Virus record (IMG/VR): IMGVR_UViG_3300033155_001544
Coordinates: 1-36,549 of that record
From: a virus
Strand: one strand, 5' to 3'
DNA: 36,549 nucleotides
Positions 11,010-24,854 of this stretch are shown here, one piece after another. Numbering within the stretch: the stretch's first letter is position 1; each line of letters opens with the position of its first letter. The translations under genes and the position numbers were made by a program. The notes beneath the pieces are model-generated. The model saw only the letters and a list, made by a program, of their open reading frames with translations, had not been told where the DNA came from and searched no databases.

Positions 11010-11105
11010 TCATTTCACCTCATTATTCGACGTTCGCCGTTCTTTCCCGTTATCATCATCGACGTTTCTACGTGGGAATGTTTCTGTGCCATGGCAGGCC
11101 AGCAT
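11010..11105 (-). CDS. Possible 31-residue peptide
   Basis: A short frame from ATG 11105, three bases after the upstream TAA and with GGAGGCG before it, ending one base before the next ATG. It fills the gap exactly, as genuine genes here do. The product is hydrophilic with one CH pair and many Arg/Asn/Asp. Size alone makes it uncertain. Confidence 0.4.
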   Translation of the reverse strand: MLACHGTETFPRRNVDDDNGKERRTSNNEVK

Positions 11106-11106
11106 C

Positions 11107-11292
11107 TTATCGCCTCCAATCCTCGGGTCCGAGGCCGTCCCGGATCCCGCAGGTCCGTTCGATATACTCCTCCCGCGCTCCATCTACGGCATGATATCGA
11201 ACGTGGAGGTCGGCGTTCCCATCACGGCTGGCGGTGGTGACTACGATATACACCTTCGAGAACTTACGGGTCCAGAACTGTTGGAATGTCAT
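11107..11292 (-). CDS. Small hypothetical protein
   Basis: 61 residues from ATG 11292, with a GGAGGGGGG ribosome site overlapping the end of the terminase-small-like gene. Predicted beta-rich middle (KFSKVYIVVTTASRDGNADL) followed by a basic/acidic helix (VDGAREEYIERTC). No family recognised. Confidence 0.6.
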   Translation of the reverse strand: MTFQQFWTRKFSKVYIVVTTASRDGNADLHVRYHAVDGAREEYIERTCGIRDGLGPEDWRR

Positions 11293-11294
11293 CG

Positions 11295-11921: not shown

Positions 11922-12220
11922 TTCGGCTCATCTCCGGGCGTGCGGATCCCGCGCCGTCCTCTCGCGGTGATGCCGTAGAGGGTCGTGTGCTGCGTGATGC
12001 TGCGACCTCTGGATACCATCCGGTCGATGCTACGGTGCACGGTGATGACCTGCGCCCGACGGAGCTCTCTGATGACCTGGTGCAGTTCGAGCCGCGTTAC
12101 GAACTTCCAGCGTCGGCGATACTCGTCGTAGAGGGCCTCGAACGTGACGTCGCCCCATTCGGCAAGATACGCTGGGATATCGCGCTTGACCTGTGCTCTG
12201 ATGTCTGCTCTGATCGCCAC
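11918..12220 (-). CDS. Winged-helix-like protein
   Basis: 100 residues from GTG 12220. The middle (FEALYDEYRRRW... then LELHQVIRELRRAQVITVHRSI) has the helix layout of a winged helix, and the end is basic (GITARGRRGIRTPG). It is similar in style to the 112-residue protein at 13965-14303, with 'VR/AQVI..HR' in the wing position. It probably binds DNA; target unknown. Overlaps the small-terminase candidate as ATGA. Confidence 0.6.
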   Translation of the reverse strand: MAIRADIRAQVKRDIPAYLAEWGDVTFEALYDEYRRRWKFVTRLELHQVIRELRRAQVITVHRSIDRMVSRGRSITQHTTLYGITARGRRGIRTPGDEPK

Positions 12221-12224
12221 CGGA

Positions 12225-12410
12225 TCATTCCTCGGCGTCCAACGGCAGAACGATTGCCAGTATAGACTCGTCTTTGAACCTCGCGACTTCCTTCTCTCCG
12301 CGAGAGAACACTATCCAGTTGCCGTTAAATTTGAAGTCGTCGGCGTGTACCTTCATGCTGATCTCGCCACCATATACATCGTAGATCTTCTCTTTCGTTT
12401 CTTCAGTCAT
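12225..12410 (-). CDS. Small hypothetical protein
   Basis: 61 residues from ATG 12410 with a GGAGATG upstream. Beta-rich sequence (IYDVYGGEISMKVHADDFKF, then WIVFSRGEKEVARF), acidic C-terminus. Looks like a small beta-barrel or sandwich. No family recognised. Confidence 0.65.
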   Translation of the reverse strand: MTEETKEKIYDVYGGEISMKVHADDFKFNGNWIVFSRGEKEVARFKDESILAIVLPLDAEE

Positions 12411-12415
12411 TCACA

Positions 12416-12742
12416 TCATCTCCTCGTCTCCTTCGGGGCTCTCCAGCCCTCAGCCTGTCTCTGGAGGCGTCTCCGGCCTATCACGCTGTCGAGCGGTACG
12501 AGCACGGGCTGCACGTCCGCCGGGTCGTACGGCTTCGCGCACGACATGCAGAAGAGCAGTCCGCTGACGCCCATCTTCATGAGCACGTCGCTGCACTCCG
12601 GGCATACCATTCGATGGGTGAGCACGAACTCTCCCTTGCAGTCAGGGCATTCGAGCACGTCCTTCTTGTTCGTCCTGTTCAGTTGTCCGCTGCAGTCGGG
12701 GCACTCGTGCTGTTTCTCGGTTGGTGGTTCGGGTTTCACCAT
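12416..12742 (-). CDS. Multi-zinc-ribbon protein
   Basis: 108 residues from ATG 12742 with GAGGAG upstream. Four CxxC pairs follow one another: CPDCSG, CPDCKG, CPECSD and CMSC, i.e. two complete zinc ribbons, then a basic tail (GRRRLQRQAEGWRAPKETRR). This is typical of archaeal nucleic-acid- or RNA-polymerase-associated zinc ribbons. A role in transcription is a guess from fold only. Confidence 0.72.
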   Translation of the reverse strand: MVKPEPPTEKQHECPDCSGQLNRTNKKDVLECPDCKGEFVLTHRMVCPECSDVLMKMGVSGLLFCMSCAKPYDPADVQPVLVPLDSVIGRRRLQRQAEGWRAPKETRR

Positions 12743-12746
12743 CGTA

Positions 12747-12965
12747 TCACTCCTCTTCTACGGGTTCGGGTTCCTTCGGGGCGGTGTCGTCGACCGTTAC
12801 GGTGATGTAACGTTCGGTCTCGAATCCGTATTGGTTCACCCTGTTGACCCACTCGATCTGTGGTGCTGTCTTCCCGTACTGGTCTTTCAACCGACGGTTT
12901 ATCACTTCAACCAGGTCCTCTTCCGTGACCTTGAAGTCTATCGTCTTCATGTTCATTCTTATCAT
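12747..12965 (-). CDS. Small hypothetical protein
   Basis: 72 residues from ATG 12965 (ATGA overlap; a second ATG at 12956 is possible). Reads MKTIDFKVTEEDLVEVINRR near the start and ends in a Pro/Glu-rich tail (KEPEPVEEE), with a central beta hairpin (FETERYITVTVDD). No family recognised. Confidence 0.65.
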   Translation of the reverse strand: MIRMNMKTIDFKVTEEDLVEVINRRLKDQYGKTAPQIEWVNRVNQYGFETERYITVTVDDTAPKEPEPVEEE

Positions 12966-13255
12966 CTCCCTGCTTCCTGTCCGTTCTTTCCCCATTGGTC
13001 TCCCTTGATCGTGAAGTGTTTCGTGATCCCGGCGCCGTGCTCCTGTTCAAGGCTCTCCTGGGTGCGCTCCCAGATCCCGTGGAGCCGGTCGATGCACGGG
13101 CGCTCGTAGCACGCCCACTTGTCACCGGAGATAGGACCGTGCATTACCTCCCAGTCGTTGTCGAACGCGTCCTGGTCGTCGACATACCACTCCTGACGAC
13201 CGCAGTGGATGCAGGTGTAGAGGGTAGAGGTCGGGGGCATCAGGGCTTCCCCCAT
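12962..13255 (-). CDS. Zinc-finger-like small protein
   Basis: 97 residues from ATG 13255 (or ATG 13240, which has GGGGG at better spacing). It has CIHCGRQEWYV near the N-terminus and WACYERPCIDRLHG about 30 residues later, a split zinc site with Cys4 or Cys3His. The C-terminus is helical then basic. Function unknown; part of the zinc-rich small-gene run. Confidence 0.65.
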   Translation of the reverse strand: MGEALMPPTSTLYTCIHCGRQEWYVDDQDAFDNDWEVMHGPISGDKWACYERPCIDRLHGIWERTQESLEQEHGAGITKHFTIKGDQWGKNGQEAGR

Positions 13256-13256
13256 C

Positions 13257-13448
13257 TCATTGACAACACCCCACGGAATTTTCTACTGTTATTCCCATTT
13301 TATAGTCCTCGATGATGCCTTCCAGCCGTTCTATTTCTTTATCCGCAGCTATTTGGCGTTCCATCATGGCTGTGAACGTCGCCTCTAAAATGCCGAAGTC
13401 AGTATCTTTCCAGTGCTTCAGTATATAGAAATTCACTTTGTTCCCCAT
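13257..13448 (-). CDS. Small coiled-coil protein
   Basis: 63 residues from ATG 13448, sharing one base with the upstream stop (TGATG) after GGAGGGG. Mostly helical (GILEATFTAMMERQIAADKE, then IERLEGIIEDYK) with a CC pair near the end (VGCCQ). No family recognised. Confidence 0.6.
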   Translation of the reverse strand: MGNKVNFYILKHWKDTDFGILEATFTAMMERQIAADKEIERLEGIIEDYKMGITVENSVGCCQ

Positions 13449-13618
13449 CACCGTCCCCTCCATCGCTTCGCTGTCGGCCCGAGCCTCGCCGGTTTCAGCG
13501 TCCTGCACCTGCGGCAGTACATCATTATTCGTGACGGGTGATGACCGCCCTTGTATCTCACGACTCGGTGGCCGACGATGATGCACTGCAGGGATCTCCA
13601 CGGGTGGCGCCAGTTCAT
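13448..13618 (-). CDS. Small basic protein with single CxxC
   Basis: 56 residues from ATG 13618 (ATGA overlap). Very basic and tryptophan-containing (MNWRHPWRSLQCIIVGHRVV), with a CRRC pair that may work with the earlier Cys/His residues as a zinc site (C, H, CxxC). Likely nucleic-acid binding, by composition only. Confidence 0.6.
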   Translation of the reverse strand: MNWRHPWRSLQCIIVGHRVVRYKGGHHPSRIMMYCRRCRTLKPARLGPTAKRWRGR

Positions 13619-13968
13619 TTGAAGAACCTCCCCCACCAGTGCTTTCGCTGTCGCTTCTGTTTCGCCTTGTACTCGCGGATGAGGGACTCGGTCACGGGCA
13701 TCGTGGACATTCCCGGACCAGCGCGCATTTCCTCGGGGTCATGTGGTTCGAGACAGCGCGGGCACAGTAAGCGCCCGTCATCGGTCCAGTAGGGGACGGT
13801 GTCTCGCATCTCGACGACACGCCCGTAGGTCGGGCAGTACCCGAGTGCGTTATGCGGCAGGATCCCCTGTCGCACCATCTCCAGAAGATTCATGTCCCCC
13901 ATGCGTTGCGCGACTTGGAGCAGTGGCCACGTGGGGTCTTCCTTCTTCACGTCCGCTTCGTGCTTCAT
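13615..13968 (-). CDS. Zinc-ribbon-like small protein
   Basis: 117 residues from ATG 13968 (ATGA overlap). A helical N-terminus (LLQVAQRMGDMNLLEMVRQG), then GYCPTYG and LLCPRCLEPHD, which could form a zinc site, then a strongly basic end (KAKQKRQRKHWWGRFFK). Probably nucleic-acid binding; no family recognised. Confidence 0.65.
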   Translation of the reverse strand: MKHEADVKKEDPTWPLLQVAQRMGDMNLLEMVRQGILPHNALGYCPTYGRVVEMRDTVPYWTDDGRLLCPRCLEPHDPEEMRAGPGMSTMPVTESLIREYKAKQKRQRKHWWGRFFK

Positions 13969-14303
13969 CCGTGCACCTCCGCCAGTGCTGCCAACGGCGC
14001 GAGGACGTCGATGAGCGCCTGCTCCCGACGGCGCATCTGGAGCATCAGGTTCTCCTTCGCACGGGTGACGCCGGAGGGTGTCAATGAGTAGTAGGAGTGC
14101 CGGTGCTTCCCGACGTGCTGGTATCTCCGCTCGACGTAGCCCGTGCCGACCATCCTGCCGAGCGCGTACTTCAGCTGATGCTTGTCGGGCGCGTGCATCC
14201 CGTAGTTGCCGCCGTTCAGCGCTTCCTCGATCGCGTCGAGGGACGCTTCCTTCACCGTCGCGAGGTAGCGGTAGAGCTCGCCGATGATGTCGACCTTCCT
14301 CAT
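13965..14303 (-). CDS. Winged-helix DNA-binding protein
   Basis: 112 residues from ATG 14303 (ATGA overlap). Residues ~5-75 form a winged helix: helix 1 IIGELYRYLATVKEASLDAI, a recognition helix around KHQLKYALGRMVGTGYVERR, and a wing with YSLTPSGVTRAKE, the typical ending of MarR/PadR-like archaeal regulators. Likely a transcription regulator of viral or host genes. Confidence 0.72.
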   Translation of the reverse strand: MRKVDIIGELYRYLATVKEASLDAIEEALNGGNYGMHAPDKHQLKYALGRMVGTGYVERRYQHVGKHRHSYYSLTPSGVTRAKENLMLQMRRREQALIDVLAPLAALAEVHG

Positions 14304-14671
14304 TCGGCGACCTCCCCCCGCATCATCCGAGCACGGTGGTGGAGCATCATCGCCATGAGCCCGATGTCGACATTCTCAGCGACGAGCTCGTCGTGCGGTG
14401 GGCGACTGCCCCACCGGAGAAGCCACTCCTCCATCTCGACGTCGAGCTCCCCGACCTCTTCCTTCAACTTCTCGAAGAGCCACGCAAACGAGCAGACTTT
14501 GTACGAGTCGCCCTTCTCCGGATCGTGCCTTCTCATCGTGCGCTCCATCGCTTCCGCGAACTCCATGATCTCCGGGCGCGGGTACTCGCCGCGCTCGATA
14601 TCCCGGATCACTTGCCGGATCCTACGGGCGTGCTCGGCCTTGACCGTTATTCGTACCTCTCCCGGTTCCAT
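14300..14671 (-). CDS. MazG-like NTP pyrophosphatase
   Basis: 123 residues from ATG 14671 with GGAGGAGGG upstream. The all-alpha NTP pyrophosphohydrolase motif is visible: E71-E72-V-G-E75 in the first helix and E99-N-V-D102 in the second (EKLKEEVGELD; VAENVDIGLMAMM), which bind Mg2+. Members hydrolyse (d)NTPs to monophosphates, cleaning the nucleotide pool or altering host signalling. The N-terminal 45 residues are an extra helical region (VIRDIERGEYPRPEIMEFAE). Confidence 0.7.
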   Translation of the reverse strand: MEPGEVRITVKAEHARRIRQVIRDIERGEYPRPEIMEFAEAMERTMRRHDPEKGDSYKVCSFAWLFEKLKEEVGELDVEMEEWLLRWGSRPPHDELVAENVDIGLMAMMLHHRARMMRGEVAE

Positions 14672-14838
14672 CTTACTCGCCCTCCTCCGGCGGTGGGGGC
14701 CTCCAATATCCGGGCGAGGGCTTCCATCATCATGCCGTCGTGAAAATCGGTATCATTCCGGTGGGTTGGTTTTCCCCGGTGGAGCATGATTATCAACTCC
14801 TCGTCGCCCATCTCTCTAAAGTGGTTTTGTCCGTCCAT
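14647..14838 (-). CDS. Small hypothetical protein
   Basis: 63 residues from ATG 14838 with GAGGTGA six bases upstream. His/Met-rich start (REMGDEELIIMLHRGKPTHR) and a helix with MMMEALARILEAP. Overlaps the start of the MazG-like gene by 25 bases. Function unknown. Confidence 0.6.
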   Translation of the reverse strand: MDGQNHFREMGDEELIIMLHRGKPTHRNDTDFHDGMMMEALARILEAPTAGGGRVRWNRERYE

Positions 14839-14840
14839 CC

Positions 14841-15125
14841 TCAATCACCTCTCTTTCCGAATGCGTCCAGCGGGACGCTGTCCGGGTCCCCCTGGTCGCA
14901 GAGTTCGCTCTTCCGGGTGTTCCTGTTCGTGATCATCATTTTTATCCGGAGGTACTTCTCGTTGACCGCGATCGGTGAGAGCCCGTCGGCCTTTCGCCGG
15001 GCGTTCCGCCGTTTCGCGAACTGGAGGTAGTCGTCGACGAGCGTGTAGATCGTCCGGATAAGCTGCTCGTCCATGTTGGCGAGAGCCTTGTACGTCTTCA
15101 GCTCGACCTCGGATCTCCTGAGCAT
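14841..15125 (-). CDS. Small basic helical protein
   Basis: 94 residues from ATG 15125 (TGATG overlap with the SWIM gene). Helical (MDEQLIRTIYTLVDDYLQFA) followed by a basic stretch (KRRNARRKADG). It could be a DNA-binding accessory of the SWIM protein next to it; that is inference from coupling only. Confidence 0.65.
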   Translation of the reverse strand: MLRRSEVELKTYKALANMDEQLIRTIYTLVDDYLQFAKRRNARRKADGLSPIAVNEKYLRIKMMITNRNTRKSELCDQGDPDSVPLDAFGKRGD

Positions 15126-15697
15126 CACGCCGCCCCCCGCAACACTTCCACCTTGTGCGTCACCAACGACAGGTCCAGGTTCATCCACGCCGTCTCGTGC
15201 TCCGCGTGGACGTACTGTTCGACCTTGTACTCGTTGGGATTGAATGACATCAGCGCCAGGAACTCTTCGATGTGCGAGCATTTCTGCCGGTAGTGGAAGC
15301 CGTCGCACGAGCACTCCCAGCGTTCCCGGTCGTCGGTGTACTGCATGCAGTGGTTGTGATCTCCGACGGGGTCCGTGCTCGTGTGGACCATCACCCTTCT
15401 CGCGTCGACGATGTGGAACCCCTTTCCCCGCAAGGCGGACAGGACGCGCCACACGTAGACCATGAACTGATGGAGGCACCAGCCGTTCGTGTGGTAACCT
15501 TGACAATCGCATTCGAGTAACCAGGATAAATGTCTCTCGGTCTTGTTGTAGTTCTCTTCCGTTAACGGCTTGATCGAGTAGCCCTTCGCCGTCCTGATCA
15601 CCTTGTCATACGATAAAAACTTCCAGATCTTGTTCAGCGGAGAGCCCTTCGGATATGCGGTTGATATCCATATCGGAAGCTCGTCGTTGTCGTACAC
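15125..15697 (-). CDS. Double SWIM zinc-finger protein
   Basis: 190 residues from GTG 15697. Two CxC...CxH SWIM-type fingers are visible: Cys63, Cys65, Cys74, His76 (CDCQGY...WCLH) and Cys129, Cys131, Cys140, His142 (CSCDGF...KCSH). SWIM domains bind DNA or protein and occur in MuDR-type transposases, SWI2/SNF2 ATPases and archaeal recombination factors. The frame stays open and protein-like upstream (PFSVTKYEVAAILGW) to an ATA at 15757 that follows GGGGGTGA and overlaps the previous stop (ATAA), so the true protein may be 20 residues longer with a non-standard start. Confidence 0.75.
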   Translation of the reverse strand: MYDNDELPIWISTAYPKGSPLNKIWKFLSYDKVIRTAKGYSIKPLTEENYNKTERHLSWLLECDCQGYHTNGWCLHQFMVYVWRVLSALRGKGFHIVDARRVMVHTSTDPVGDHNHCMQYTDDRERWECSCDGFHYRQKCSHIEEFLALMSFNPNEYKVEQYVHAEHETAWMNLDLSLVTHKVEVLRGAA

Positions 15698-15753
15698 GGT
15701 CCAGCCGAGGATCGCTGCGACCTCGTACTTCGTGACGGAGAACGGGGACGAGG

Positions 15754-15918
15754 TTATGGTGCGTCACCCCCGTCCGTTGAAAAGGGTGAGGGAGAAACAC
15801 CGGCCTGGGAGGTTCGCGGGAAAGATGGAGTCAGACCCGCGCACCTATCACCGGCGCGCTCCCCCATTATACGAATAATATTGATGTTCATTAAGGTTCC
15901 GTCGGGAATCGTGATCAT
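15754..15918 (-). CDS. Possible 54-residue protein
   Basis: From ATG 15918, overlapping the upstream stop as ATGA with GAGGTG just before, to TAA at 15754-15756. N-terminus hydrophobic (TLMNINIIRIMG), then Ser/Pro/Thr-rich and low complexity. The coupling signals are good, the protein is not recognisable. Confidence 0.45.
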   Translation of the reverse strand: MITIPDGTLMNINIIRIMGERAGDRCAGLTPSFPRTSQAGVSPSPFSTDGGDAP

Positions 15919-16946
15919 TGCACCTCAACCCCGTCGTATGGATCCAGCGTCTCGCGCTCGTCCCTCGGCTCGAACGTCAGCTGCGGGTGCTTCAGCTCGT
16001 CGCCGATACGATTCAATGATCTCGATACTCTCGAGAGTGACCGCGATATCTCCGGGAGGTCCTGCCACCCGTTCTTGATCGCCTCGAGGTCGACCTCGAC
16101 CACCTCCACCTTTTTCCGTACCTCGAGGACCATGTCCTGGGTCAGCATGACCTCGTCCTTGATGTCCAGGAGAGAGCGCGGGGCCCTCGCGACCAGGTCC
16201 GCGATCCTCGGGTCCTCGGTCTCGACTTCGACGATGCCGTCCTTCGCGGTCCCGAGGCTGTCGTCGATCCAGCCGCCGTCCGTTAGGATCTTGCCGTCGG
16301 TTCCCTTCACCTCGTCAGCCAACGCCTTCGAGTGCGTCATCACGCCGAGGTGCTTGGACACTTCCATCGGCATGCCGAGCCTGTAACCCCACCGCTTCTC
16401 GATGTAATTCTTCAGCTGGAACGCGACGTCGTCCCGGTCCTTCAGGCACTGCTCGAGCGTCGGCGCTGACACGAACTCTATCGGCAGGTACGCTACCATC
16501 GTCTTGTCGCCGTAGACCCGGACAAAAACGTCGACCTCACCGAACCGCAGTCGTTTCTGGCTTACCTTCGTGTCTTTCATCCAGTATTCAGAGTCCCAGG
16601 CGACGTTCCCGCTCTCCGTGATCTTGTACTTGAACGCGTGGTTGTGGACACGTATCGCACGGGACTTCGTCCCGTCCCCCACGTCGTGATAGTTACAATC
16701 CTCTTTCGGGGCGTTTCGGCCCCTTTCATAGAACGTCCTTCGCTTGCTGTAGTTGACGCCCGGGAGGAGCAGCCGGATCTTTTCTTCCGCATCGGAGCGT
16801 CTCGCGATCGGGCGTATCCACCCATCCTTCAGGAGCTCCTGGACGTAGTACGATACCATCCGTTTCGATATCCTGAGCATGTCCGAGATCTGCTTCTGCA
16901 GGAACATGTTCGGGGGGACGATGAGCCGGAAGACGTCGTCCTTCAC
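15915..16946 (-). CDS. Winged-helix protein with C-terminal coiled coil; candidate replication initiator or regulator
   Basis: 343 residues from GTG 16946. Residues ~12-50 form an HTH (QKQISDMLRISKRMVSYYVQ, then ELLKDGWIRPIARR). The central ~180 residues have alternating beta and helix (VDVFVRVYGDKTMVAYLPIE) and the end is coiled coil (SRSLSRVSRSLNRIGDELKH). It stands directly downstream of an array of GTTACA repeats at 16970-17042, the arrangement of an iteron-binding replication protein or an autoregulator. No known family was identified; the replication role is inferred from the repeats and the lack of any other replication gene. Confidence 0.7.
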   Translation of the reverse strand: MKDDVFRLIVPPNMFLQKQISDMLRISKRMVSYYVQELLKDGWIRPIARRSDAEEKIRLLLPGVNYSKRRTFYERGRNAPKEDCNYHDVGDGTKSRAIRVHNHAFKYKITESGNVAWDSEYWMKDTKVSQKRLRFGEVDVFVRVYGDKTMVAYLPIEFVSAPTLEQCLKDRDDVAFQLKNYIEKRWGYRLGMPMEVSKHLGVMTHSKALADEVKGTDGKILTDGGWIDDSLGTAKDGIVEVETEDPRIADLVARAPRSLLDIKDEVMLTQDMVLEVRKKVEVVEVDLEAIKNGWQDLPEISRSLSRVSRSLNRIGDELKHPQLTFEPRDERETLDPYDGVEVQ

Positions 16947-16969
16947 GGCGATGCTTCCACCCCCCTGTT

Positions 16970-17042
16970 GTTACAGAAAAGGTTACATGAATTGCCATGA
17001 CAGTTACAATCTGCCTTGATAGTTACATCCTTGATAGTTACA
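16970..17042. repeat. GTTACA repeat array upstream of the winged-helix gene
   Basis: Five direct copies of GTTACA starting at 16970, 16982, 17003, 17022 and 17037; the last three extend to (T/C)AGTTACA and two to TTGATAGTTACA. Spacing is 12, 21, 19 and 15 bases. A sixth GATAGTTACAATC lies inside the gene at 16692. The 100-base gap is otherwise featureless. It could be an iteron-type origin, an operator, or both. Confidence 0.6.
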
Positions 17043-17046
17043 ATGC

Positions 17047-17457
17047 TCAGGCGACCACCTCCTTGAAGCGGATCACCTGGAGCAACTGTCCGGGGCCGTA
17101 CCATCCGAGGAGGAGTTTCCCGAGGGCTTCACCCGTCGGGGGGTCGATGAAGTCCAGCTCCGCCAGGTACGTGAGCTTTGGATGGGCCCACGGATAGAAC
17201 TTGCCATTCATGGTATCCGTCAGTCCGGTCTTTTCCAGCTCCAGGACGAGGAACTTCTCGACCTCGACCCGAAGACGCCACGACCACTTCGAGCGGTACG
17301 GCTTCCCTTCCCATCCGTGGAAGAGTATCTGGTCATCCCAGATGGGTATCTTGTCCGGGTCGTCCGTCTTGATCGCGCGGATGGTCTGAGTACAACGGCC
17401 GTCGAGGACCGCCGGGATCTTCGGCGCGTAGGTGAAGGCCTTGACGAACTTCTTCAC
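17047..17457 (-). CDS. ASCH-domain protein
   Basis: 136 residues from GTG 17457 (GTGA overlap, GGAGGTGGTC upstream). The N-terminus KIPAVLDGRCTQTIRAI is the ASCH signature 'G.KTQTIR', followed by the barrel strands and a closing WYGPGQLLQVIRFKEVV. ASCH domains are PUA-related RNA-binding or RNA-processing modules, common in archaeal viruses and plasmids. It is the last gene of a coupled set that starts after the attP region. Confidence 0.65.
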   Translation of the reverse strand: MKKFVKAFTYAPKIPAVLDGRCTQTIRAIKTDDPDKIPIWDDQILFHGWEGKPYRSKWSWRLRVEVEKFLVLELEKTGLTDTMNGKFYPWAHPKLTYLAELDFIDPPTGEALGKLLLGWYGPGQLLQVIRFKEVVA

Positions 17458-17612
17458 GGGACCACCTCCTGACGGTAGGGTGGATCCAGGATCGGGGTGT
17501 TGCAGATCGAGCAGACCATCGGGCCATCTCCCTCAAGCCGTAACTGCACGATCTGGGGCAGGTACGCGCAACACGTCCGGCACCAGAACACTCTCTTCGC
17601 GGGAGGTCTCAC
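17454..17612 (-). CDS. Zinc-ribbon microprotein
   Basis: 52 residues from GTG 17612, overlapping the upstream stop (GTGA) after GGAGGTGGTCC. It has WCRTCC and CSICNT separated by about 20 residues, a compact zinc ribbon, and ends in QEVVP, encoded by the same GGAGGTGGTCCCGTGA junction as the upstream gene. Confidence 0.65.
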   Translation of the reverse strand: MRPPAKRVFWCRTCCAYLPQIVQLRLEGDGPMVCSICNTPILDPPYRQEVVP

Positions 17613-17863
17613 GGGACCACCTCCACCGGGAATTTATGCCCGCAGTCACGGTCACTGCAACGGTATTCCGTCGTGCTCCACTGGTAGGTGTCGCCGCCGC
17701 ATATCGGGCACCGGACGCCCTGTCCCGGTCGCGTGGTCGGCCTCGGCTGGAAGTTATCCGGATAATGACGTCGGCACTTCGAGCATTGCGGTGACGAGCC
17801 TTGAGGTCGGTAGAAGCGGCACTTCGACGAACCGCATGATGCTCCCTCGGCGCGGCGGCCCAT
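17609..17863 (-). CDS. Double zinc-ribbon protein
   Basis: 84 residues from ATG 17863. Three Cys groups: CGSSKCRFY/CSKC, CPICGG and CSDRDCGH (treble-clef style), with a basic linker (FQPRPTTRPGQG). Two zinc sites are likely. It ends in FPVEVVP. Nucleic-acid binding is the likely general role. Confidence 0.68.
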   Translation of the reverse strand: MGRRAEGASCGSSKCRFYRPQGSSPQCSKCRRHYPDNFQPRPTTRPGQGVRCPICGGDTYQWSTTEYRCSDRDCGHKFPVEVVP

Positions 17864-18135
17864 CAGAGCACCTCCCCGTCCGTCCGCTTGTACTTGTTAA
17901 GGACATCGAGGACGTCGATGATGTCCTTCAGGCATTGATTATTGAAGATCGTACAATCTTCGAGGAACACAGTATATTGACGCCACGGTGGATGCCATCT
18001 TATCATTCCGAGAAGGGATTCGTCCCTTGATTCGATAGTCCACACTTCCGTCTTCCCACTGTCTGTTACTTTTAATAATTCGAATGTGAGGTATGATGTA
18101 CTCTGAATAAGTTGAATAAGATCCCGGACCTTCAC
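17863..18135 (-). CDS. Small hypothetical protein beside attP
   Basis: 90 residues from GTG 18135 (TTG 18138 also possible), GGGGGTG upstream. Sequence is a mix of beta (YLTFELLKVTDSGKTEVWTI) and helix (LKDIIDVLDVLNKYKR). More AT-rich than its neighbours. If the virus integrates at the attP described next, this gene would lie at the opposite end of the provirus from the integrase. Confidence 0.62.
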   Translation of the reverse strand: MKVRDLIQLIQSTSYLTFELLKVTDSGKTEVWTIESRDESLLGMIRWHPPWRQYTVFLEDCTIFNNQCLKDIIDVLDVLNKYKRTDGEVL

Positions 18136-18218
18136 CAACGCACCCCCGCTCTCAGTGCATCAAAAGAGCATTCGCTGATCCCGTCGTTTGCGACGACTGG
18201 ATCAACGGTAGTACCAAA

Positions 18219-18308
18219 AAGTGCTACTCCGGGGATGAGCCAGGGGGTATAGTAGGACCGAATCCGGCCGGGCCCACTCGTTGTCTGGCGTTTCGCGTAG
18301 TAGCACTT
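18219..18308. other. Candidate attP: tRNA 3'-end-like core with flanking inverted repeats
   Basis: The core 18259-18276 (CGAATCCGGCCGGGCCCA) reads like the end of an archaeal tRNA: T-loop CGAAT, T-stem CCGGC, acceptor strand CGGGCCC and discriminator A. Perfect 10-bp inverted repeats, AAGTGCTACT (18219-18228) and AGTAGCACTT (18299-18308), flank it almost symmetrically, as integrase arm sites would. It lies just downstream of the integrase gene. The two T-loop bases before the core do not match a tRNA, so any shared region starts at CGAAT. Confidence 0.5.
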
Positions 18309-18328
18309 CTCGGCTCTATTCGCAGCCT

Positions 18329-19273
18329 TCAGACTCTTCTCATCTTCGGAGCTATCAGAGGTTGATAGATGCTGTCGCGCACCGCGTCCCGTGCGAGATC
18401 TTCGAGCTCGCCGACGTAATGGCGGAACACCGCTTCCGTCGAGTGGTCGCTGATCCTCATCGCCACCGGGACAGGTGTGCCGTTCCTGATGAGCATCTCG
18501 CACCCCGCTCTCCGGAGCATGTGGAAGGTCACGCGGAACCCGAGCTCGTCCGAGAGCGTGTGCATCCTGTTCTCCAGTGACGACCGCGTCAGGTTCCCCA
18601 TTTTTTTCCGCTCGTACTTCGTCCAGATGAACAGCTTGTCCGGGATCGGCGCATCCGGTGAAATCTGCTTCACCGACCGGATCACCTGACGACGGTGTTC
18701 GAGGAACTCCTGGTACTCGTCGAAGATCTCCGGGTTGATCGGGATCACACGTTCCCGTCCTCCGCCGGGGCCCTTGTCGATCCCCCGGATGTAGGTCGGG
18801 TGGATGTCGCCGGGCGTCATCCCGAGGGCCATCTTTCGACGCGCCGTCAATAGCCCCGTCATCACCATGATCCGCGTCTGATGCTGCTCGAATGTCCGCC
18901 ATCCATTTAGACATGACATCATGCAGTCGAGCTCGTCCATGGTGAGCCTCGGCCTGTCCGGTATGTGGTGTTGTAGTAAGGGTCGGTCGAGCGGGTTCCC
19001 GCACTTGTGCAGGAACGCCATCATGATACCGAGCTGGTACTTCCTGTTCCCGGGCCCCCCCGGGATCATGTGCTTCAGCTCGATCAGCTCGTCCTGCGTT
19101 ATGGTGATCGGTTGCGGCAGGTATTTTGTTCGCGTTCCCCGGATCTCTTTCAGTTGCCGGAAGCAGTGCCTGAGCACTCTCGCGCTGTCGTCTATATGCC
19201 TCTGCGTCCTCTCCTTGCGTCTGAGACTCGATAGATACCGCTCCAGCTCCGTACCGAAGCTCGGCGGCCTCAT
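18329..19273 (-). CDS. int: Tyrosine recombinase / integrase
   Basis: 314 residues from ATG 19273 with a near-perfect GGAGGTGA before it. N-terminal SAM-like DNA-binding domain (~1-100), then the catalytic domain: Arg145/146 in TGLLTARRKMALGMTPGDI, Lys ~167, His251-x-x-Arg254 in FHMLRRAG, His277 in ISDHSTE and nucleophile Tyr286 in FRHYVGE. All catalytic positions are filled. It should integrate the genome into the host chromosome, probably at a tRNA gene, and makes the virus temperate. It is followed by the candidate attP. No excisionase was recognised; a nearby small basic protein could serve. Confidence 0.93.
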   Translation of the reverse strand: MRPPSFGTELERYLSSLRRKERTQRHIDDSARVLRHCFRQLKEIRGTRTKYLPQPITITQDELIELKHMIPGGPGNRKYQLGIMMAFLHKCGNPLDRPLLQHHIPDRPRLTMDELDCMMSCLNGWRTFEQHQTRIMVMTGLLTARRKMALGMTPGDIHPTYIRGIDKGPGGGRERVIPINPEIFDEYQEFLEHRRQVIRSVKQISPDAPIPDKLFIWTKYERKKMGNLTRSSLENRMHTLSDELGFRVTFHMLRRAGCEMLIRNGTPVPVAMRISDHSTEAVFRHYVGELEDLARDAVRDSIYQPLIAPKMRRV

Positions 19274-19303
19274 CTGTCACCTCCCTATCCCGTCGTCTCC
19301 TTA

Positions 19304-19672
19304 TCATTCTTGTGCCTTCTTCCGTGGAAGTTCTGCGATTTTCTTTAGCGTCTCCTCTACGTCTTCTTCTGACATCCAACCGATAACGTCGTCCGTGATG
19401 GGTGTGTCATTTGTCAGGTTTTCGCCGTCCAGTACCCCCAGCTCCCACTTCCCTGCCTCGTGACCATAAGAGAACGAGTGCTTGACCACCGACGCCCCGT
19501 AACCATTGTCGAAAGCGAAGCAATACTGAACGCCGCCGTTTATGTAACGTCCTTCGCTCGGCTGGTGGCCGAACATCACAGGTACTTCTTCCATCTCGCC
19601 GTCTTTACTGCGCCCGGCAATCACATCAAACGCACGGGCGACACTCTCACCGGTTGTTGGTTCTTTACTCAT
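19304..19672 (-). CDS. Hypothetical protein
   Basis: 122 residues from ATG 19672 with AAAGGAG upstream. A beta-rich centre with aromatic and Gly residues (GGVQYCFAFDNGYGASVV, then FSYGHEAGKWELGVL) and an acidic helical end (SEEDVEETLKKIAELPRKK). Located directly before the integrase. No family recognised. Confidence 0.68.
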   Translation of the reverse strand: MSKEPTTGESVARAFDVIAGRSKDGEMEEVPVMFGHQPSEGRYINGGVQYCFAFDNGYGASVVKHSFSYGHEAGKWELGVLDGENLTNDTPITDDVIGWMSEEDVEETLKKIAELPRKKAQE

Positions 19673-19685
19673 TTGGATGTCTCCT

Positions 19686-20132
19686 TTACGATTCGTCGAG
19701 GGTCGTCTGCTTCTCGACCTTCCCGACGGTGAACGTGATCACGTCGCCGACCATCTCCAGGTTCCACGCCTTGGCGGTGGTCTCGTCTGTGGTCATCTTG
19801 AAGTCGGGCTTCTCGTCCTTGCCGACCTTCTGCGCCAGCTTGTACGTGACGCTCGATCCGTCAGACTTCTCCTTCGTGTCGATCTCGATAACTTCCAGTT
19901 CGATGTCCATGCTACGCTCACCTCTCTCTTTCTTGATGATGTGGTCGAACTCGCCAGACTCTATTCTTCCCGGGAGCTCTTCCATCTGTTTGAACGTGAG
20001 GTCGGCGGCCTTCTTACCACCGACAGATATCTCGATGTTCGTCTCCTTCTTCGGCCAGCACTTGTCGCATCGATAGACGCCCTTCTCGACGCACACCATC
20101 TTGGTCCCGCAGTTCGAGCAGAGCTCAGGCAT
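19686..20132 (-). CDS. N-terminal zinc-ribbon protein
   Basis: 148 residues from ATG 20132 with GGAGG six bases upstream. A complete zinc ribbon at the start (CSNCGTKMVC...YRCDKCWPKK), then beta strands and acidic helices (DIELEVIEIDTKEK; DVITFTVGKVEKQ). The C-terminal part repeats short beta segments and may be an oligomerisation domain. Function unknown. Confidence 0.7.
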   Translation of the reverse strand: MPELCSNCGTKMVCVEKGVYRCDKCWPKKETNIEISVGGKKAADLTFKQMEELPGRIESGEFDHIIKKERGERSMDIELEVIEIDTKEKSDGSSVTYKLAQKVGKDEKPDFKMTTDETTAKAWNLEMVGDVITFTVGKVEKQTTLDES

Positions 20133-20295
20133 TCAGGGCCTCCTCTCTGGAGCTAAGTAAACCGGATTCGGGAAACGTTGCTAACGTGCCGTCTAAATTG
20201 TAGTACGGTGATGGATGATAGTAGAACTGACAGAATGAGCATCGATATCCGCATTTGTAAGGGTTCAGTATTCCGAAGCAATATAAACAGTCCAT
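20125..20295 (-). CDS. Zinc-finger microprotein
   Basis: 56 residues from ATG 20295, four bases after the previous stop. CLYCFG and KCGYRCSFCQFYYH give a Cys4/His zinc site; the sequence is AT-rich with many Tyr. It overlaps the next gene by 8 bases and contains that gene's ribosome site. Confidence 0.6.
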   Translation of the reverse strand: MDCLYCFGILNPYKCGYRCSFCQFYYHPSPYYNLDGTLATFPESGLLSSREEALNA

Positions 20296-20298
20296 CCG

Positions 20299-20523
20299 TC
20301 ACGACCCCCTCTCTGTCGGGGGAACCTTCTGTGCAATCATTTTCATGCCGTCTTCAGGATAATACATCAAATCAATACAATCGATATGGAATACTTTGGC
20401 CTCGTAAGTGAAGCCTTCGTCCTCATTCGTTCCATAGACTGATATGAGCGTTGACTGACCTTCTTCATTCGTCCCGCAGATGGGGCATTCCTGCTCTGGT
20501 GGAAATTCCTCAAACACCCTCAT
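20299..20523 (-). CDS. Small zinc-binding protein
   Basis: 74 residues from ATG 20523 (ATGA overlap). CPICGTNEEG near the start and FHIDCIDL later suggest a CxxC...HxxC treble-clef-like site, as in HNH-type or RING-like small proteins but without nuclease residues. Function unknown. Confidence 0.65.
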   Translation of the reverse strand: MRVFEEFPPEQECPICGTNEEGQSTLISVYGTNEDEGFTYEAKVFHIDCIDLMYYPEDGMKMIAQKVPPTERGS

Positions 20524-20717
20524 TCCTTCACCCCGTCGTACGTGTAGCTGCTTGACGTCCTCCGGAACTGGAAGATCATCCCATTAGGCATGATCGCTTC
20601 GATGTGGTGATGACCCTTCTCGTCCGTCAACATGTCGACTATCTCGCAGCCGAGCTTCTCGAGGATCTCGCGCATGAAGCCGTTCCATTGGCCGATCGTC
20701 ATCGTTCTCCTTTTCAT
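20520..20717 (-). CDS. Small hypothetical protein
   Basis: 65 residues from ATG 20717, closely following the zinc microprotein stop. One helix (IGQWNGFMREILEKLGCEIV) then a beta part (HHHIEAIMPNGMIFQFRR). Resembles a small alpha/beta fold; no family recognised. Confidence 0.65.
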   Translation of the reverse strand: MKRRTMTIGQWNGFMREILEKLGCEIVDMLTDEKGHHHIEAIMPNGMIFQFRRTSSSYTYDGVKE

Positions 20718-20721
20718 GTGA

Positions 20722-20868
20722 TCACCCGCACGTCAGGCAGCTCCCGCAGTTGTAGCAGAACTTCGTTCCTCTCTGGTGAGAGCTTCCGCAGCGGTCGCAG
20801 TCTATCGTTTCGATGTCAATTCCCACGGAGGCCGTGAGCCGTACGCCGACCTCGACGGGGGCGCTCAC
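20722..20868 (-). CDS. Zinc-ribbon microprotein, CxxC-dense C-terminus
   Basis: 48 residues from GTG 20868 (GTGA overlap). CDRCGSSHQRGTKFCYNCGS is a standard zinc ribbon, immediately followed by another Cys pair (CLTCG) at the very end. N-terminal half is beta (EVGVRLTASVGIDIE). Confidence 0.62.
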   Translation of the reverse strand: MSAPVEVGVRLTASVGIDIETIDCDRCGSSHQRGTKFCYNCGSCLTCG

Positions 20869-20972
20869 TCCAGCCCCTCCGTTACCGTGAGAGACGGGGT
20901 GATCATGATCATCCTGCGGTGGGTCAGCTCGCCGCGAGGCTCGATGATGCCGATGCCGATGCGGAGGGTCAC
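20865..20972 (-). CDS. Possible 35-residue peptide
   Basis: From GTG 20972 (GTGA overlap with the upstream stop), ending at 20865 within a further GTGA overlap. Beta-like sequence (LRIGIGIIEPRGELTHRRMI). The exact fit between coupled genes is the only support. Confidence 0.45.
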   Translation of the reverse strand: MTLRIGIGIIEPRGELTHRRMIMITPSLTVTEGLE

Positions 20973-21589
20973 TTGGAGGCCTCCTCCGGCGCAGCGTCCT
21001 GGATGCGCTGATGCTTCCAGCACAGCGGACGCCCGTACTTCTCGCAGCTGAACTCGTCCACCTTCACGCTGATGGGTTCGCTGCAGACCGCGCACGTCGC
21101 GTTCCCCCACTCGGGCACGTCCTCCTCGGGTGGTGGTCCGTCCTTCGGTGGATCGTCAGGAACATGTTCCTCGTCCTGAGCATGCCCAGGTTCGGGCTTG
21201 ACCTCCTCGACTTCCATCTCTCCATCGGGGAGTTCGTCCGGGGGGTCCTTCACCACTTTGACGGAGCCCTCGGCGGCTGTCTCTACACCGGGGAACAGGA
21301 CGCTGTATTGGAGTTGATAGGCGCTGACGAGCTCGTCGTACGCGTCGTCTGCGATCGCTCTCTTCACGCGCTGCTCCTCGGCGTGGACCTTCTCCGCAAG
21401 GGCAACGTTCAGCTTCTCCCACATGAGCTCTGCTGCTTTCACGCGGTCGTCGAGGGGGAGCTCCATGATGGGAGCGCCGAGGCCGAAGGAGAGATGACCC
21501 TCGATGTGACAGCTCTCGAAAGGGCGCGGCTGTACGGACACCTTCCGGGTCGCGCCGATCCATGCGGCGGGTTGCGGGAACTCGCCCAT
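20969..21589 (-). CDS. Hypothetical protein with C-terminal zinc site
   Basis: 206 residues from ATG 21589, GGGGGG upstream. N-terminal domain has beta-type sequence (CHIEGHLSFGLGAPIMELPL) and helix (AAELMWEKLNVALAEKVHAE), followed by a long acidic Pro/Glu-rich linker (~residues 115-165), then CAVCSEPISVKVDEFSCEK...LCWKH, a Cys4/His zinc-binding module. The N-terminal part resembles single-stranded-DNA-binding-like or structural small domains only vaguely; function not assigned. Confidence 0.68.
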   Translation of the reverse strand: MGEFPQPAAWIGATRKVSVQPRPFESCHIEGHLSFGLGAPIMELPLDDRVKAAELMWEKLNVALAEKVHAEEQRVKRAIADDAYDELVSAYQLQYSVLFPGVETAAEGSVKVVKDPPDELPDGEMEVEEVKPEPGHAQDEEHVPDDPPKDGPPPEEDVPEWGNATCAVCSEPISVKVDEFSCEKYGRPLCWKHQRIQDAAPEEASK

Positions 21590-21590
21590 C

Positions 21591-21734
21591 TCAGCACCCC
21601 CCTCTGAGGTCCGCGAGCGCCTTCCGGTAGCCTCGGTAGAACTCGACATCGTAGGATGCTTTCGCACCGGCGGCCTTCTCCATCGCCTTGACAGCGAACG
21701 CGTCGGATGCGTCGAGGTCCTCGACGGTGATCAC
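21591..21734 (-). CDS. Small hypothetical protein
   Basis: 47 residues from GTG 21734 (GTGA overlap, GGGAGGTGGTC upstream). One helical segment (DAFAVKAMEKAAGAKASYD) and a basic turn (YRGYRKALADLRGG). Too short for family assignment. Confidence 0.55.
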   Translation of the reverse strand: MITVEDLDASDAFAVKAMEKAAGAKASYDVEFYRGYRKALADLRGGC

Positions 21735-21874
21735 TCGACCACCTCCCACCTGGGCTCCTCGTCACCAACCTGGAAGTACCCCTCGGTGCGACCGCATCGC
21801 TCGCACGTCCTCATGGAACCACCTTCCGGCTTCTTGAAGCGGTTCCACTTGTGATGACGGCACCGGTCGCTCAT
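21731..21874 (-). CDS. Zinc-ribbon microprotein
   Basis: 47 residues from ATG 21874 (ATGA overlap). CRHHKWNRF and CERCGRTEGYF form a C/H...CxxC zinc site, with WEVVE at the end encoded by the GGAGGTGGTC junction that also serves the next gene. Confidence 0.6.
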   Translation of the reverse strand: MSDRCRHHKWNRFKKPEGGSMRTCERCGRTEGYFQVGDEEPRWEVVE

Positions 21875-22515
21875 TCGACCACCAGCCCTTCCTTCTCGAG
21901 CTCTGCCCGGTGGCGCTCCTCGAGCTCGGCCATCCCCGCGTCCGGCTTCTCCACCTGAACGTACAGGTTGTGTTTCTCCGTGTACGTCGCCGCGTCGTCG
22001 CCGAGGATCCCGACGTCTTTCAGCTTCCGTAAGAACGGCTTCGCGAATGTCTTGACGCCCTCAGAGACCTTGTCGTTCGCGACCAATACGGCAATAACTT
22101 TCGCCTTGTCGACGACCTCGAGGGACTTGGTCACGCGGACGTTCGCGTGGATGATGTCGAGCCCGTCGATGACGTCGAGCTCCTTCAGGTCGCCGAACTC
22201 GTCGACCCACGAGTCGCGGACCTGGTCGAGGAGCTTTGCCCGGATGTCCTCGTGGAGTATTATCTTCTCGATGAAGCGGGACTGCGTTGCTGTGATGAGT
22301 CCGTGCGCGGCATCGAGCTTCTCCTCGATGATCTCCCTCTCCCGGTCCAGCTCTTTGTGGTGCTGCACCGCCTCGATGACCGACGGGTCCTTGGTCATGG
22401 ATGTCTGCTCGTCCTCGATCCACCCGGACAGCTCGTTGTAGCGTCTGAGGAGATCGTCGATCTGCATTCCGTGTTCGAGCGGCCCCCCGTCCTCGTGCTC
22501 GGTGCCCATGGTCAT
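21871..22515 (-). CDS. Coiled-coil protein, possibly Gam- or Gp157-like
   Basis: 214 residues from ATG 22515, GGGGTG upstream. Helical first half (DDLLRRYNELSGWIEDEQTS; HHKELDREREIIEEKLDAAH) and a second half with a beta-type segment (HANVRVTKSLEVVDKAKVIA) then FAKPFLRKLKDVG. This helix-then-small-domain layout recalls phage Gam (nuclease inhibitor/DNA-end binding) and Gp157 proteins, but the match is weak. Early-region position suits a DNA-metabolism role. Confidence 0.6.
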   Translation of the reverse strand: MTMGTEHEDGGPLEHGMQIDDLLRRYNELSGWIEDEQTSMTKDPSVIEAVQHHKELDREREIIEEKLDAAHGLITATQSRFIEKIILHEDIRAKLLDQVRDSWVDEFGDLKELDVIDGLDIIHANVRVTKSLEVVDKAKVIAVLVANDKVSEGVKTFAKPFLRKLKDVGILGDDAATYTEKHNLYVQVEKPDAGMAELEERHRAELEKEGLVVE

Positions 22516-22517: not shown

Positions 22518-22721
22518 TCAGCACCCCACGATGGACATGATGTCGTTCACAAGCTCGGCGTCGGTGCCGCTGCGCGGTCCTGACAACAGGTCGGTGATCT
22601 CCTCGACCATCCGCTCAGAGCGCTGCGCTCTCTTTAGCCGGGCGTTTACCAGGTCGCTCAGGTAATCGTCTGCGACTTCACTGCTTCGTTTCTCCGTGTT
22701 GTTCTCCATCTTTTCCTTCAC
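22518..22721 (-). CDS. Small helical protein
   Basis: 67 residues from GTG 22721, GGGAGG seven bases upstream. Charged helices (NARLKRAQRSERMVEEITDL) and a short C-terminal helix (AELVNDIMSIVGC). It overlaps the upstream RHH gene's end by 44 bases. No family recognised. Confidence 0.6.
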   Translation of the reverse strand: MKEKMENNTEKRSSEVADDYLSDLVNARLKRAQRSERMVEEITDLLSGPRSGTDAELVNDIMSIVGC

Positions 22722-23094
22722 GATAAATCCTCCCAGTTTCTTCTTCGGGTGAGCGGGAAGGGAGGACGGGATGTCGTGGGGGCACCACTGTGGTCCCGTC
22801 CTCCCCGTTGTCGGGCTCCGAGGGGATGGTTCGCGTGCTAATCTCGGAGTTACCGCCGGAACCGTCGCCGCCAGAGGTGACATTGCCTTCTCCCGTATGC
22901 AGAGAGGACGCAGGCTCTGAAAATTCGGCGGCAGCGGGGCCAGAGGGATCTGGGAATTTTTCAATGAAACGACGGACCGCATCCTTCACGAACTCCGCTC
23001 GAGACGAGTAGTCGCTTTCGGGGGAGTTGATCAGCCCATCTATTTTATCGATCATGGATACCGGGAGATTGATGTACCCGTAGTCTTTCCGCAT
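22678..23094 (-). CDS. Ribbon-helix-helix (RHH) DNA-binding protein, leftward switch gene
   Basis: 138 residues from ATG 23094. An RHH domain fills residues 1-45: strand YGYINLPVSMIDKIDGLI then helix SRAEFVKDAVRRFIEKF, as in CopG/Arc-type dimers. The remaining ~90 residues are Pro/Ser/Gly/Glu-rich and probably disordered. A TATA-like ATTATATA at 23116-23123 is ~25 bases upstream, giving an almost leaderless mRNA. It is divergent from a second RHH gene around a repeat-rich region; probably the early regulator controlling the leftward small-gene operon. Confidence 0.75.
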   Translation of the reverse strand: MRKDYGYINLPVSMIDKIDGLINSPESDYSSRAEFVKDAVRRFIEKFPDPSGPAAAEFSEPASSLHTGEGNVTSGGDGSGGNSEISTRTIPSEPDNGEDGTTVVPPRHPVLPSRSPEEETGRIYREGKDGEQHGETKQ

Positions 23095-23216
23095 GTATCC
23101 GGTATAGGACGGGTAGTATATAATCCTTCGGTATGTGTATGGTAAGGGTTGGGGTATGATTGGAGTAAATATATATATACCTAACCGGGAGGGTATGGGT
23201 GCGTGAGGAGATACCC
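23095..23216. promoter_or_regulatory. Divergent promoter/operator region with GGTAT repeats
   Basis: Contains a leftward TATA box (23116-23123) and a rightward TATA stretch ATATATATA (23170-23179). The motif GGTA(T/A) recurs at about 23101, 23112, 23130, 23141, 23153 and 23192, and its complement ATACC at 23176 and 23211; GGGTAT (23191) and ATACCC (23211) make an inverted repeat that overlaps the rightward start. This is the spacing expected for RHH dimers binding several short sites. Confidence 0.65.
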
Positions 23217-23402
23217 ATGCCGCCAAAAGGATACGTCAGCGTGGCCCTCCCCGAGGGCCTAATCACAGCTGTTAATGATTTGATCGGGAGCCACCCCGAC
23301 CTGGGATATCGGAACCGGACAGAGTTTATTATCGAGGCAACGCGGCGCCGGATCGAGCAAGTCGAAGCCCACCGCGACATCATGAACCTCGGGAAGGAAT
23401 GA
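23217..23402 (+). CDS. Ribbon-helix-helix (RHH) DNA-binding protein, rightward switch gene
   Basis: 61 residues from ATG 23217, with GAGGAG six bases upstream; a GTG at 23199 in frame is less well placed. RHH domain: strand KGYVSVALPEGLITAVNDLI, then helix RNRTEFIIEATRRRIEQVEAH. It is the only plus-strand gene I support, similar in layout to the divergent RHH protein. The pair probably forms the lysogeny/lytic switch. A rightward TATA box lies ~22 bases before a predicted start near 23200. Confidence 0.75.
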   Translation: MPPKGYVSVALPEGLITAVNDLIGSHPDLGYRNRTEFIIEATRRRIEQVEAHRDIMNLGKE

Positions 23403-23691: not shown

Positions 23692-24564
23692 TCACTTAAT
23701 ACCGAATGCATCATCGGGATCGATGAAGTCATCCTCGCCGTCCGGCTTCTTCGCCCGCGTGATATAAATGGTACAGGCGTCCAATCCGCGCAATTCACGA
23801 TCCAGCATCCCGTATGTGTAGTCTGGATTATTCTTACAGTATTGATTGCAGATGCTTTCAACACGCGATTTATTGTCGGGACCGCGAGCAAATACTAATA
23901 GAGAGTTCTGGGTTTCACGAATCATTCGGAGTTCGATTCTACGATAAACATCGGAATCCGACTGACCAGCAACGAAGATCGCAAAGTGATGATAGTGCAG
24001 AATATCATCGAAATGTTTTCTGAACTTCTCACCGACTTCCTGGATGTAATTTATTTCTGAAGGTTCCTTCGAGATATTGTTTTCGAGATCGTCGAGGAGT
24101 GGTAGGAAATCCAATTCAAACATGTCCATTTCCATAATGTGATAGATTCTCTTTGCTCGTTCTCCATAATTCCTTTTCAAAGAGATGAGCATGTCGTCGG
24201 CAATATTGTTCTCATCGTTATCCTCATAATATTTAATATTGTAGACGATCTTTAAAATTGTTAAGTCTCGGGGTGATAAATAATCTTTCAATCTCGTAAC
24301 CGCAGGATAGTCATCAACGCGTTTCTCCTTGATGATATCATCGACAATTTTATCGTCTCGGATGATTTCAAATTCCGCTTCATTCAGTAACGGAGACGCT
24401 TTACCCTCTTCACCCTGCACGAGTGTGACTAAAGTTAAATTCATTTCCCCTATATTGATGTCGCCCTTTGCCGACATTTTGGTATCAATGCGATCTTTGG
24501 TCTGCTGTGCGTTCTCATTCAAGCTAAGACCATTAAGAAAATCCTTGATAGCCGCAGGTAACAT
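23692..24564 (-). CDS. AT-rich cargo gene, function unknown
   Basis: 290 residues from ATG 24564 with GAAGGTGA upstream. N-terminal ~65 residues include beta strands (MNLTLVTLVQGEEG), a helical centre (PRDLTILKIVYNIKYYEDND; RAKRIYHIMEMDMFELDFLP), then an alpha/beta C-terminal domain (HHFAIFVAGQSDSD...RRIELRMIRETQNSLLVF) with a conserved-looking RGPDNKSRVESI and an acidic end. Base composition and AT-rich codons differ from the rest of the genome, a sign of recent gain. Superinfection exclusion or host defence are possible but not shown. Confidence 0.7.
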   Translation of the reverse strand: MLPAAIKDFLNGLSLNENAQQTKDRIDTKMSAKGDINIGEMNLTLVTLVQGEEGKASPLLNEAEFEIIRDDKIVDDIIKEKRVDDYPAVTRLKDYLSPRDLTILKIVYNIKYYEDNDENNIADDMLISLKRNYGERAKRIYHIMEMDMFELDFLPLLDDLENNISKEPSEINYIQEVGEKFRKHFDDILHYHHFAIFVAGQSDSDVYRRIELRMIRETQNSLLVFARGPDNKSRVESICNQYCKNNPDYTYGMLDRELRGLDACTIYITRAKKPDGEDDFIDPDDAFGIK

Positions 24565-24567
24565 GGG

Positions 24568-24801
24568 TCACCTTCGGTCGCCCGAACGGAACGCATAGCA
24601 GGCGGGATTGTCACAGTAAGTGAGCAATGATCCTTTTGAAATGTTCGCGACGTTTGATGTGGTGATGTCGTTTCCGCAGGCTCGGCATTTGACTTGCTCA
24701 CCACCTAACAGAAGGTGTTTTTGGTCATCGATATCGAACCCCAGAGCGTGTGCTACTGGTTCAATGGTATGTTGATCGAATAATGCCGCATTGAATACCA
24801 T
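24568..24801 (-). CDS. Zinc-binding small protein of the AT-rich cargo unit
   Basis: 77 residues from ATG 24801 with a perfect GGAGGTG five bases upstream. CRACGNDITTSNVANISKGS then YCDNPACYAF gives a Cys4 zinc site in the C-terminal half; the N-terminus is alpha/beta (VFNAALFDQHTIEPVAHALG). It shares the promoter at 24855-24872 with the larger downstream gene and is coupled to it; the two probably act together. Confidence 0.7.
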   Translation of the reverse strand: MVFNAALFDQHTIEPVAHALGFDIDDQKHLLLGGEQVKCRACGNDITTSNVANISKGSLLTYCDNPACYAFRSGDRR

Positions 24802-24854
24802 TAATACACCTCCTCTTTTTCTGGCATGATGCACTTCCGCAAGTGACCATATTC

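Follow-up and report, generated by a model that had tools for sequence, protein, structure and literature searches.

The decision between dormancy and lysis in archaeal tailed viruses is known for only a few haloviruses, where proteins of other folds make it, and the locus considered here raises the question of whether two small ribbon-helix-helix (RHH) proteins, encoded back to back around a repeat-bearing gap, could act as such a switch. The locus lies in what is termed the window, the whole 36,549-base stretch of viral DNA that was analysed. In lambda, with CI and Cro, and in the lambdoid immunity regions generally, divergent regulators of one fold share operators, and the cassette containing them is exchanged between otherwise similar phages. 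How far the two RHH genes, the gap between them and their relatives elsewhere in archaea follow that pattern is taken up below, with coordinates collected in Table 1.

Table 1. Positions of the switch locus, the integrase gene and the replacement cassette in the relative G001 (window positions unless prefixed by L003)
Feature	Position	Strand	Remarks
Tyrosine integrase	18329..19273	-	PF00589 E=1.5e-8; phrog_1 2e-16; same strand as left RHH gene
Left RHH gene	22678..23094	-	138 aa, ATG at 23094; first gene of minus-strand array
Exchanged cassette	22950..23399	.	replaced in G001 by 1,012 bp of unrelated sequence with another divergent pair
Divergent control region (putative operator/promoter gap)	23095..23216	.	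122 bp between two ATGs
Two GGTA half-sites 11 bp apart	23101..23116	+	between left TATA box and left start codon
Leftward promoter TATA box TTATATAC	23117..23124	-	~26 bp from left ATG; leaderless archaeal geometry; from sequence
Three GGTA half-sites, spacing 11 and 12 bp	23130..23157	+	between both TATA boxes
Rightward promoter TATA box	about 23167..23179	+	~25 bp from GTG 23199; from sequence
Inverted pair GGGTAT...ATACCC (23191/23211), 14-bp loop	23191..23216	.	over right start region
Right RHH gene	23217..23402	+	61 aa from ATG 23217; 67 aa from possible GTG 23199
G001 replacement RHH gene	L003 7547-7750	-	phrog_4738 'transcriptional repressor' 3.3e-5
G001 46-aa ORF, probable RHH	L003 7855-7992		RHH-like by eye; weak match to RHH_10 (0.085)

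Virus genome and host

The window is a virus contig whose two ends (1-114 and 36436-36549) are exact direct repeats of 114 bp. A complete relative, G001 (37,583 bases), is about 97% identical to it across the structural genes and carries its own terminal repeat of 114 bp at a different place, which makes each of the two look like a complete circular assembly, cut open at a different site. Queries with RHH, 217-aa, portal, integrase and surface proteins found no further close relative among the viral contigs, and an alignment of right-type RHH proteins searched against the same contigs gave no confirmed match.

The structural genes are of the head-tailed type and include those for a Mu-like major head protein (1779-2753; PF10124, 1.3e-46), a terminase (phrog_2, 1e-24) and a weakly portal-like protein. 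The Mu gpT-like head protein is about 30% identical to its counterparts in Pseudomonas Mu-like phages, and its pairing with a tyrosine integrase is unusual for an archaeal tailed virus. The virus is probably archaeal, judging by the placing of its TATA boxes, by the almost exclusively archaeal relatives of its RHH proteins and by a terminase similar to that of a haloarchaeal virus among others. The one feature of the window virus that points to a temperate life style is its integrase gene. Searches by terminase and portal found no lysogen or integrated copy: with the terminase there was none in the genome contigs or in 293 genomes of the phylum reached via a Thermoplasmatota MAG and only four distant matches (best E 1e-15, 25% identity) in 295 genomes of the phylum of the archaeon SCG-AAA382B04, and with the portal query there was none in 250 genomes.

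The evident genes other than the right RHH gene all point left, and the claim of the initial annotation that the right RHH gene is the only one on the plus strand is consistent with the layout of ORFs and with the homologous blocks of G001. On a circular genome the leftward promoter would head essentially all of it, and for this reason we propose that the lysogenic repressor is the right protein.

The two RHH proteins

Each window protein has a single RHH motif, and not the fused tandem of AvtR, and aligns with SSV1 F55 and other RHH proteins (the MetJ/Arc/CopG group, marked by a strand and two helices); the Pfam RHH profiles stay below threshold. That the divergent genes are related is borne out by a search of the window genome in which the right protein retrieved its left partner (E 3.5e-5, 41% identity) and by their common match to phrog_38461, at E=7.6e-11 for the left protein and E=3.6e-10 for the right. 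The two score 43 and 41 bits on this model and F55 itself scores 121.6 (E 2e-35); since the model seems to be little more than F55 itself, the window match denotes family-level similarity and not orthology. In the left protein the RHH domain occupies codons 1-49 and is fused to an 89-aa low-complexity tail, and tblastn aligns it with the F55 region of SSV1 at 43% identity (E=4e-4). An AlphaFold2 model of the right protein has an extended N-terminus followed by helices at 13-25 and 34-58 (pLDDT 88), and the closest PDB folds found by Foldseek are the RHH proteins PrpA/ParD/ParB, at a non-significant E>0.4.

Among these closest solved folds are the ParB of plasmid pCXC100 and ParD-type antitoxins. 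RHH proteins of the CopG and ParB types control plasmid copy number and partition, and a pair that maintained a circular element by regulating copy number, partition or integrase and excision, with no lytic/lysogenic choice to make, would suit those folds, the position of the integrase within the array led by the left RHH gene and the lack of an integrase in the stretches fetched for some relatives. With no parA-like or toxin gene adjoining the window pair, and with every structural gene downstream of the leftward promoter, such plasmid-style control is nonetheless improbable.

The control region

The gap extends exactly from the left ATG (23094, minus strand) to the right ATG (23217, plus strand), the latter preceded by GGAG, and the two TATA boxes facing both ways and the inverted pair overlapping the rightward start are where they had been reported to be. 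The count of eight repeat copies holds for the GGTA core; only seven are exact GGTA(T/A) or (T/A)TACC. On the plus strand GGTA(T/A) occurs at 23101, 23130, 23141, 23153 and 23192 and ATACC at 23177 and 23211 (GGTA cores on the opposite strand at 23178 and 23212), and the eighth copy is an inexact GGTAG at 23112.

No other 122 bp of the window hold as many as seven copies, a modest excess when number alone is considered (dinucleotide-shuffle p=0.016; p=0.003 for 23050-23240), and a general test for repeated 6-mers does not flag the gap (p=0.49), from which its repeats are taken to be degenerate. Successive GGTA copies are spaced by 11, 11 and 12 bp (p=0.003 for helical, 11-bp phasing), and three of the four phased GGTA pairs of the entire 36.5-kb genome fall in the gap. 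As with CI and Cro, divergent regulator genes flank candidate operators that lie over both promoters. The F55 operator ATAGATAGAGT is absent from the vicinity of the window gene; the repeated element there is GGTAT/TATGGTA and not ATAGATAG, and the window proteins are therefore no orthologues of F55 sharing its target.

Exchange of the cassette

The alignment of the window with G001 ends at 22949, where codon 49 of the left gene closes the RHH domain, and restarts at 23400, in the stop codon of the right gene. What replaces the intervening segment in G001 is a second divergent arrangement, of one clear and one probable RHH gene, around different repeats: its gap has four copies of ACGTCA, three of them as TGACGTA/TACGTCA (p 0.002 to 0.014, depending on the measure). 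The tail of the left gene remains in frame in both viruses, in G001 as a separate ORF with overlapping stop and start, and the right proteins of the two viruses have a C-terminal EAHxxIxNLGK in common, with 28% identity over the whole alignment. Judged from these junctions, the specificity region appears to be exchangeable as a cassette in the manner of CI and Cro. The early region of both viruses is mosaic at many other places too, which counts against a special status for the swap at the switch.

Between window 9300-22000 and L008 mosaicism is heavy, precise replacements being numerous, whereas the structural half is conserved. Directly behind the switch (window 23692-24834) are two genes, one of 290 aa and a zinc-ribbon-like one of 88 aa, that have no counterpart in G001, where homology resumes at 24898, and no significant Pfam, PHROG or PADLOC match; they are candidate accessory (moron) genes. 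G001 itself has, behind the right RHH gene of the replacement cassette (L003 6984-7547), a membrane protein with SHOCT-like and zinc-ribbon-like parts, whose gene is a candidate for superinfection exclusion expressed together with the repressor.

Divergent RHH pairs in archaeal genomes

An alignment of the window pair and F55, searched in the 293 genomes of the phylum reached from the Thermoplasmatota MAG, yielded five divergent RHH pairs, and a 13-sequence RHH alignment searched in 295 and 250 further genomes yielded fourteen more. This brings the total beyond the window to 19 among the matches listed, 16 of them independent after removal of near-duplicates. Among the matches listed, as read by eye, every RHH pair less than about 250 bp apart was divergent and none was tandem or convergent. 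Significant repeats are present in 11 of 18 gaps, compared with 8.8% of 91 composition-matched control windows from the same loci, and the repeat varies by pair (TTACGCCAT, TACCGTA, TACCATA, AATCATAT, TAGCGGA, TGTCTAA and others).

Were the window genes two unrelated housekeeping regulators that are neighbours by accident, with repeats that arose by chance, the abundance of RHH genes in archaea (a match in 286 of the 295 genomes, mostly NikR-like by length) and the modest repeat count of the window taken alone would be as expected. A coincidence of that kind is very improbable in view of the divergence of all adjacent pairs among the matches listed, the repeats in most gaps, the likeness of partners considered below and the precise swap.

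A profile for tyrosine integrase found a match in the fetched stretch of 9 of the 16 independent pairs (L046, L047, where it is weak, L048, L049, L050, L067, where it is 6 kb away, L070, L071/L072 and L073). For single RHH loci the proportion with an integrase within 1.5 kb is about 3 of 30, from flanks that are too short for a distance-matched control of the pairs. A few pairs adjoin metabolic genes, so some may lie outside mobile elements.

A comparison may be drawn with the filamentous virus AFV6, whose gp29 (AvtR, minus strand) and gp30 (an RHH gene, plus strand) diverge from an 85-bp gap; AvtR covers about 100 nt between both promoters, represses itself and activates or represses gp30 (PMC5569661). 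The two divergent RHH genes and the short gap, bound in AFV6 by a regulator, are as in the window; the tandem double-RHH form of AvtR, which acts as a monomer, and the lack of a known immunity role set it apart. A pair of this type in the window would autoregulate and time early and late transcription with no dormant state. That is rather unlikely, as the window virus has an integrase, other pairs are often near integrases, and the exchange of specificity as a whole cassette fits selection for immunity type better than it fits timing.

RHH partners without the long loop (L062, L064, L065 and L068) often have a short DAxxxxxVFEG tail that is common to otherwise different pairs. A rule that the HPELGY-loop RHH always points away from the integrase holds in the window, L046, L048, L049, L050 and L070 but was discarded, its orientation being reversed in L071/L072 and L073. 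The idea of a conserved gene of about 220 aa beside the left RHH gene in L046, L048 and the window was likewise dropped, the genes having no sequence similarity.

Matching of partners

Partners within a pair are 0.38 identical and mismatched partners 0.30 (permutation p<0.001; reached in 0 of 5,000 permutations), the corresponding values being 0.60 and 0.43 for the strand and 0.39 and 0.32 for the helices. At the two outward-facing positions of the beta-strand, 9 of the 17 pairs have identical residues, against an expectation of 1.2 (p<5e-5). It is the strands of RHH proteins that contact bases, and partners are therefore predicted often to read the same operator, like CI and Cro. Recent duplication or shared descent could contribute to the likeness.

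The window pair itself differs at the outward strand residues, with Tyr/Asn in one protein and Ser/Ala in the other (YGYINLP / YVSVALP), so its two proteins may prefer different site variants, and a common set of sites seems less certain for it than for about half of its relatives. Window 23130-23144 matches the operator of the L065 RHH pair at 14 of 15 positions, and strand position 2 is Tyr in the left protein of either pair. An operator shared with L065 was not adopted: p=0.008 applies to that comparison, but with 15 gaps compared the match is only suggestive.

A proposed switch

A bistable and exchangeable immunity or lysogeny switch made of two RHH proteins is, in our judgement, probably the best explanation of the locus. 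The cI/Cro-type reading given in the initial annotation is the one best supported by the cassette swap, the recurrence of pairs often near an integrase, the matched strand residues and the likeness to F55; its element of shared sites is less certain for the window pair. From the layout of the genes the right protein is proposed as the CI-like repressor and the left as its Cro-like partner, and we infer binding, repression, lysogeny and the role of each protein in the switch.

In a lysogen the right RHH protein would be made alone, from the rightward promoter, and would bind the GGTA half-sites that recur once per helical turn across the left TATA box, BRE and start. It would thereby silence the leftward promoter, which would drive expression of essentially every other gene. 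The left RHH protein, product of the first gene of the leftward array, would be the Cro-like partner and would bind those sites or ones that overlap them, among them the inverted pair at the rightward start, shutting off the rightward promoter and so committing the virus to replication. An element with a different cassette would escape repression, and a cassette swap would thereby change immunity type.

Relation to known systems

Lambda differs from the window in its helix-turn-helix regulators, its bacterial promoters and the cleavable domain of CI, where the right RHH protein has 61 aa. Of the lysogeny regulators of archaea, F55 is the best defined: it keeps SSV1 in the lysogenic state by occupying 11-nt sites arranged in tandem across early promoters (PMC9608457, PMC5569661). 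Like the window proteins it is a small RHH of phrog_38461, with tandem sites about one helical turn apart over promoter elements in a temperate integrating archaeal virus; unlike them it is the product of a single gene and not of a divergent pair, it has its own operator, and its virus is a spindle-shaped member of the Fuselloviridae and not tailed. F55 has been described as unique to SSV1 (PMC9608457), though a 55-aa F55-like gene is present in the genome of Metallosphaera yellowstonensis MK1 (L013 4977-5144). In the haloarchaeal tailed viruses phiH (rep/T4) and phiCh1 (rep/ORF49) a repressor gene is back to back with a lytic transcript with an operator between them, an arrangement that has been likened to CI/Cro (PMC4284463; PMC6210493). 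The back-to-back repressor and lytic promoters are shared with the window, whereas the Rep of phiCh1 is of the winged-helix type, that of phiH has been described as resembling coliphage repressors, and the partner is not an RHH paralogue.

The statement that such a switch is seldom described in archaeal tailed viruses needs to be narrowed, in that RHH lysogeny control (SSV1 F55), divergent RHH genes (AFV6) and tailed-virus switches of other folds (phiH, phiCh1) are each known; it is their combination that is new. No description of a divergent RHH pair as a lysogeny switch was found in the open-access papers searched, and the main text of a paper on 38 archaeal head-tailed proviruses makes no mention of RHH proteins or repressors. 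What appears to be new here is putative lysogeny control by two RHH proteins together, as an exchangeable unit and in a tailed virus.

It is conceivable, though we would stop short of calling it probable, that what the lambdoid immunity region is to phages, divergent RHH pairs are to archaeal elements in general: a bistable switch, with phased operators peculiar to each element, that tailed viruses and other integrative elements carry and swap as a cassette, thereby altering their immunity type. If so, superinfection immunity in archaea would gain a general model open to experiment, the pairs would serve as a convenient marker of temperate archaeal elements, and the combinations of protein and operator found in nature would be material for deriving an RHH recognition code.
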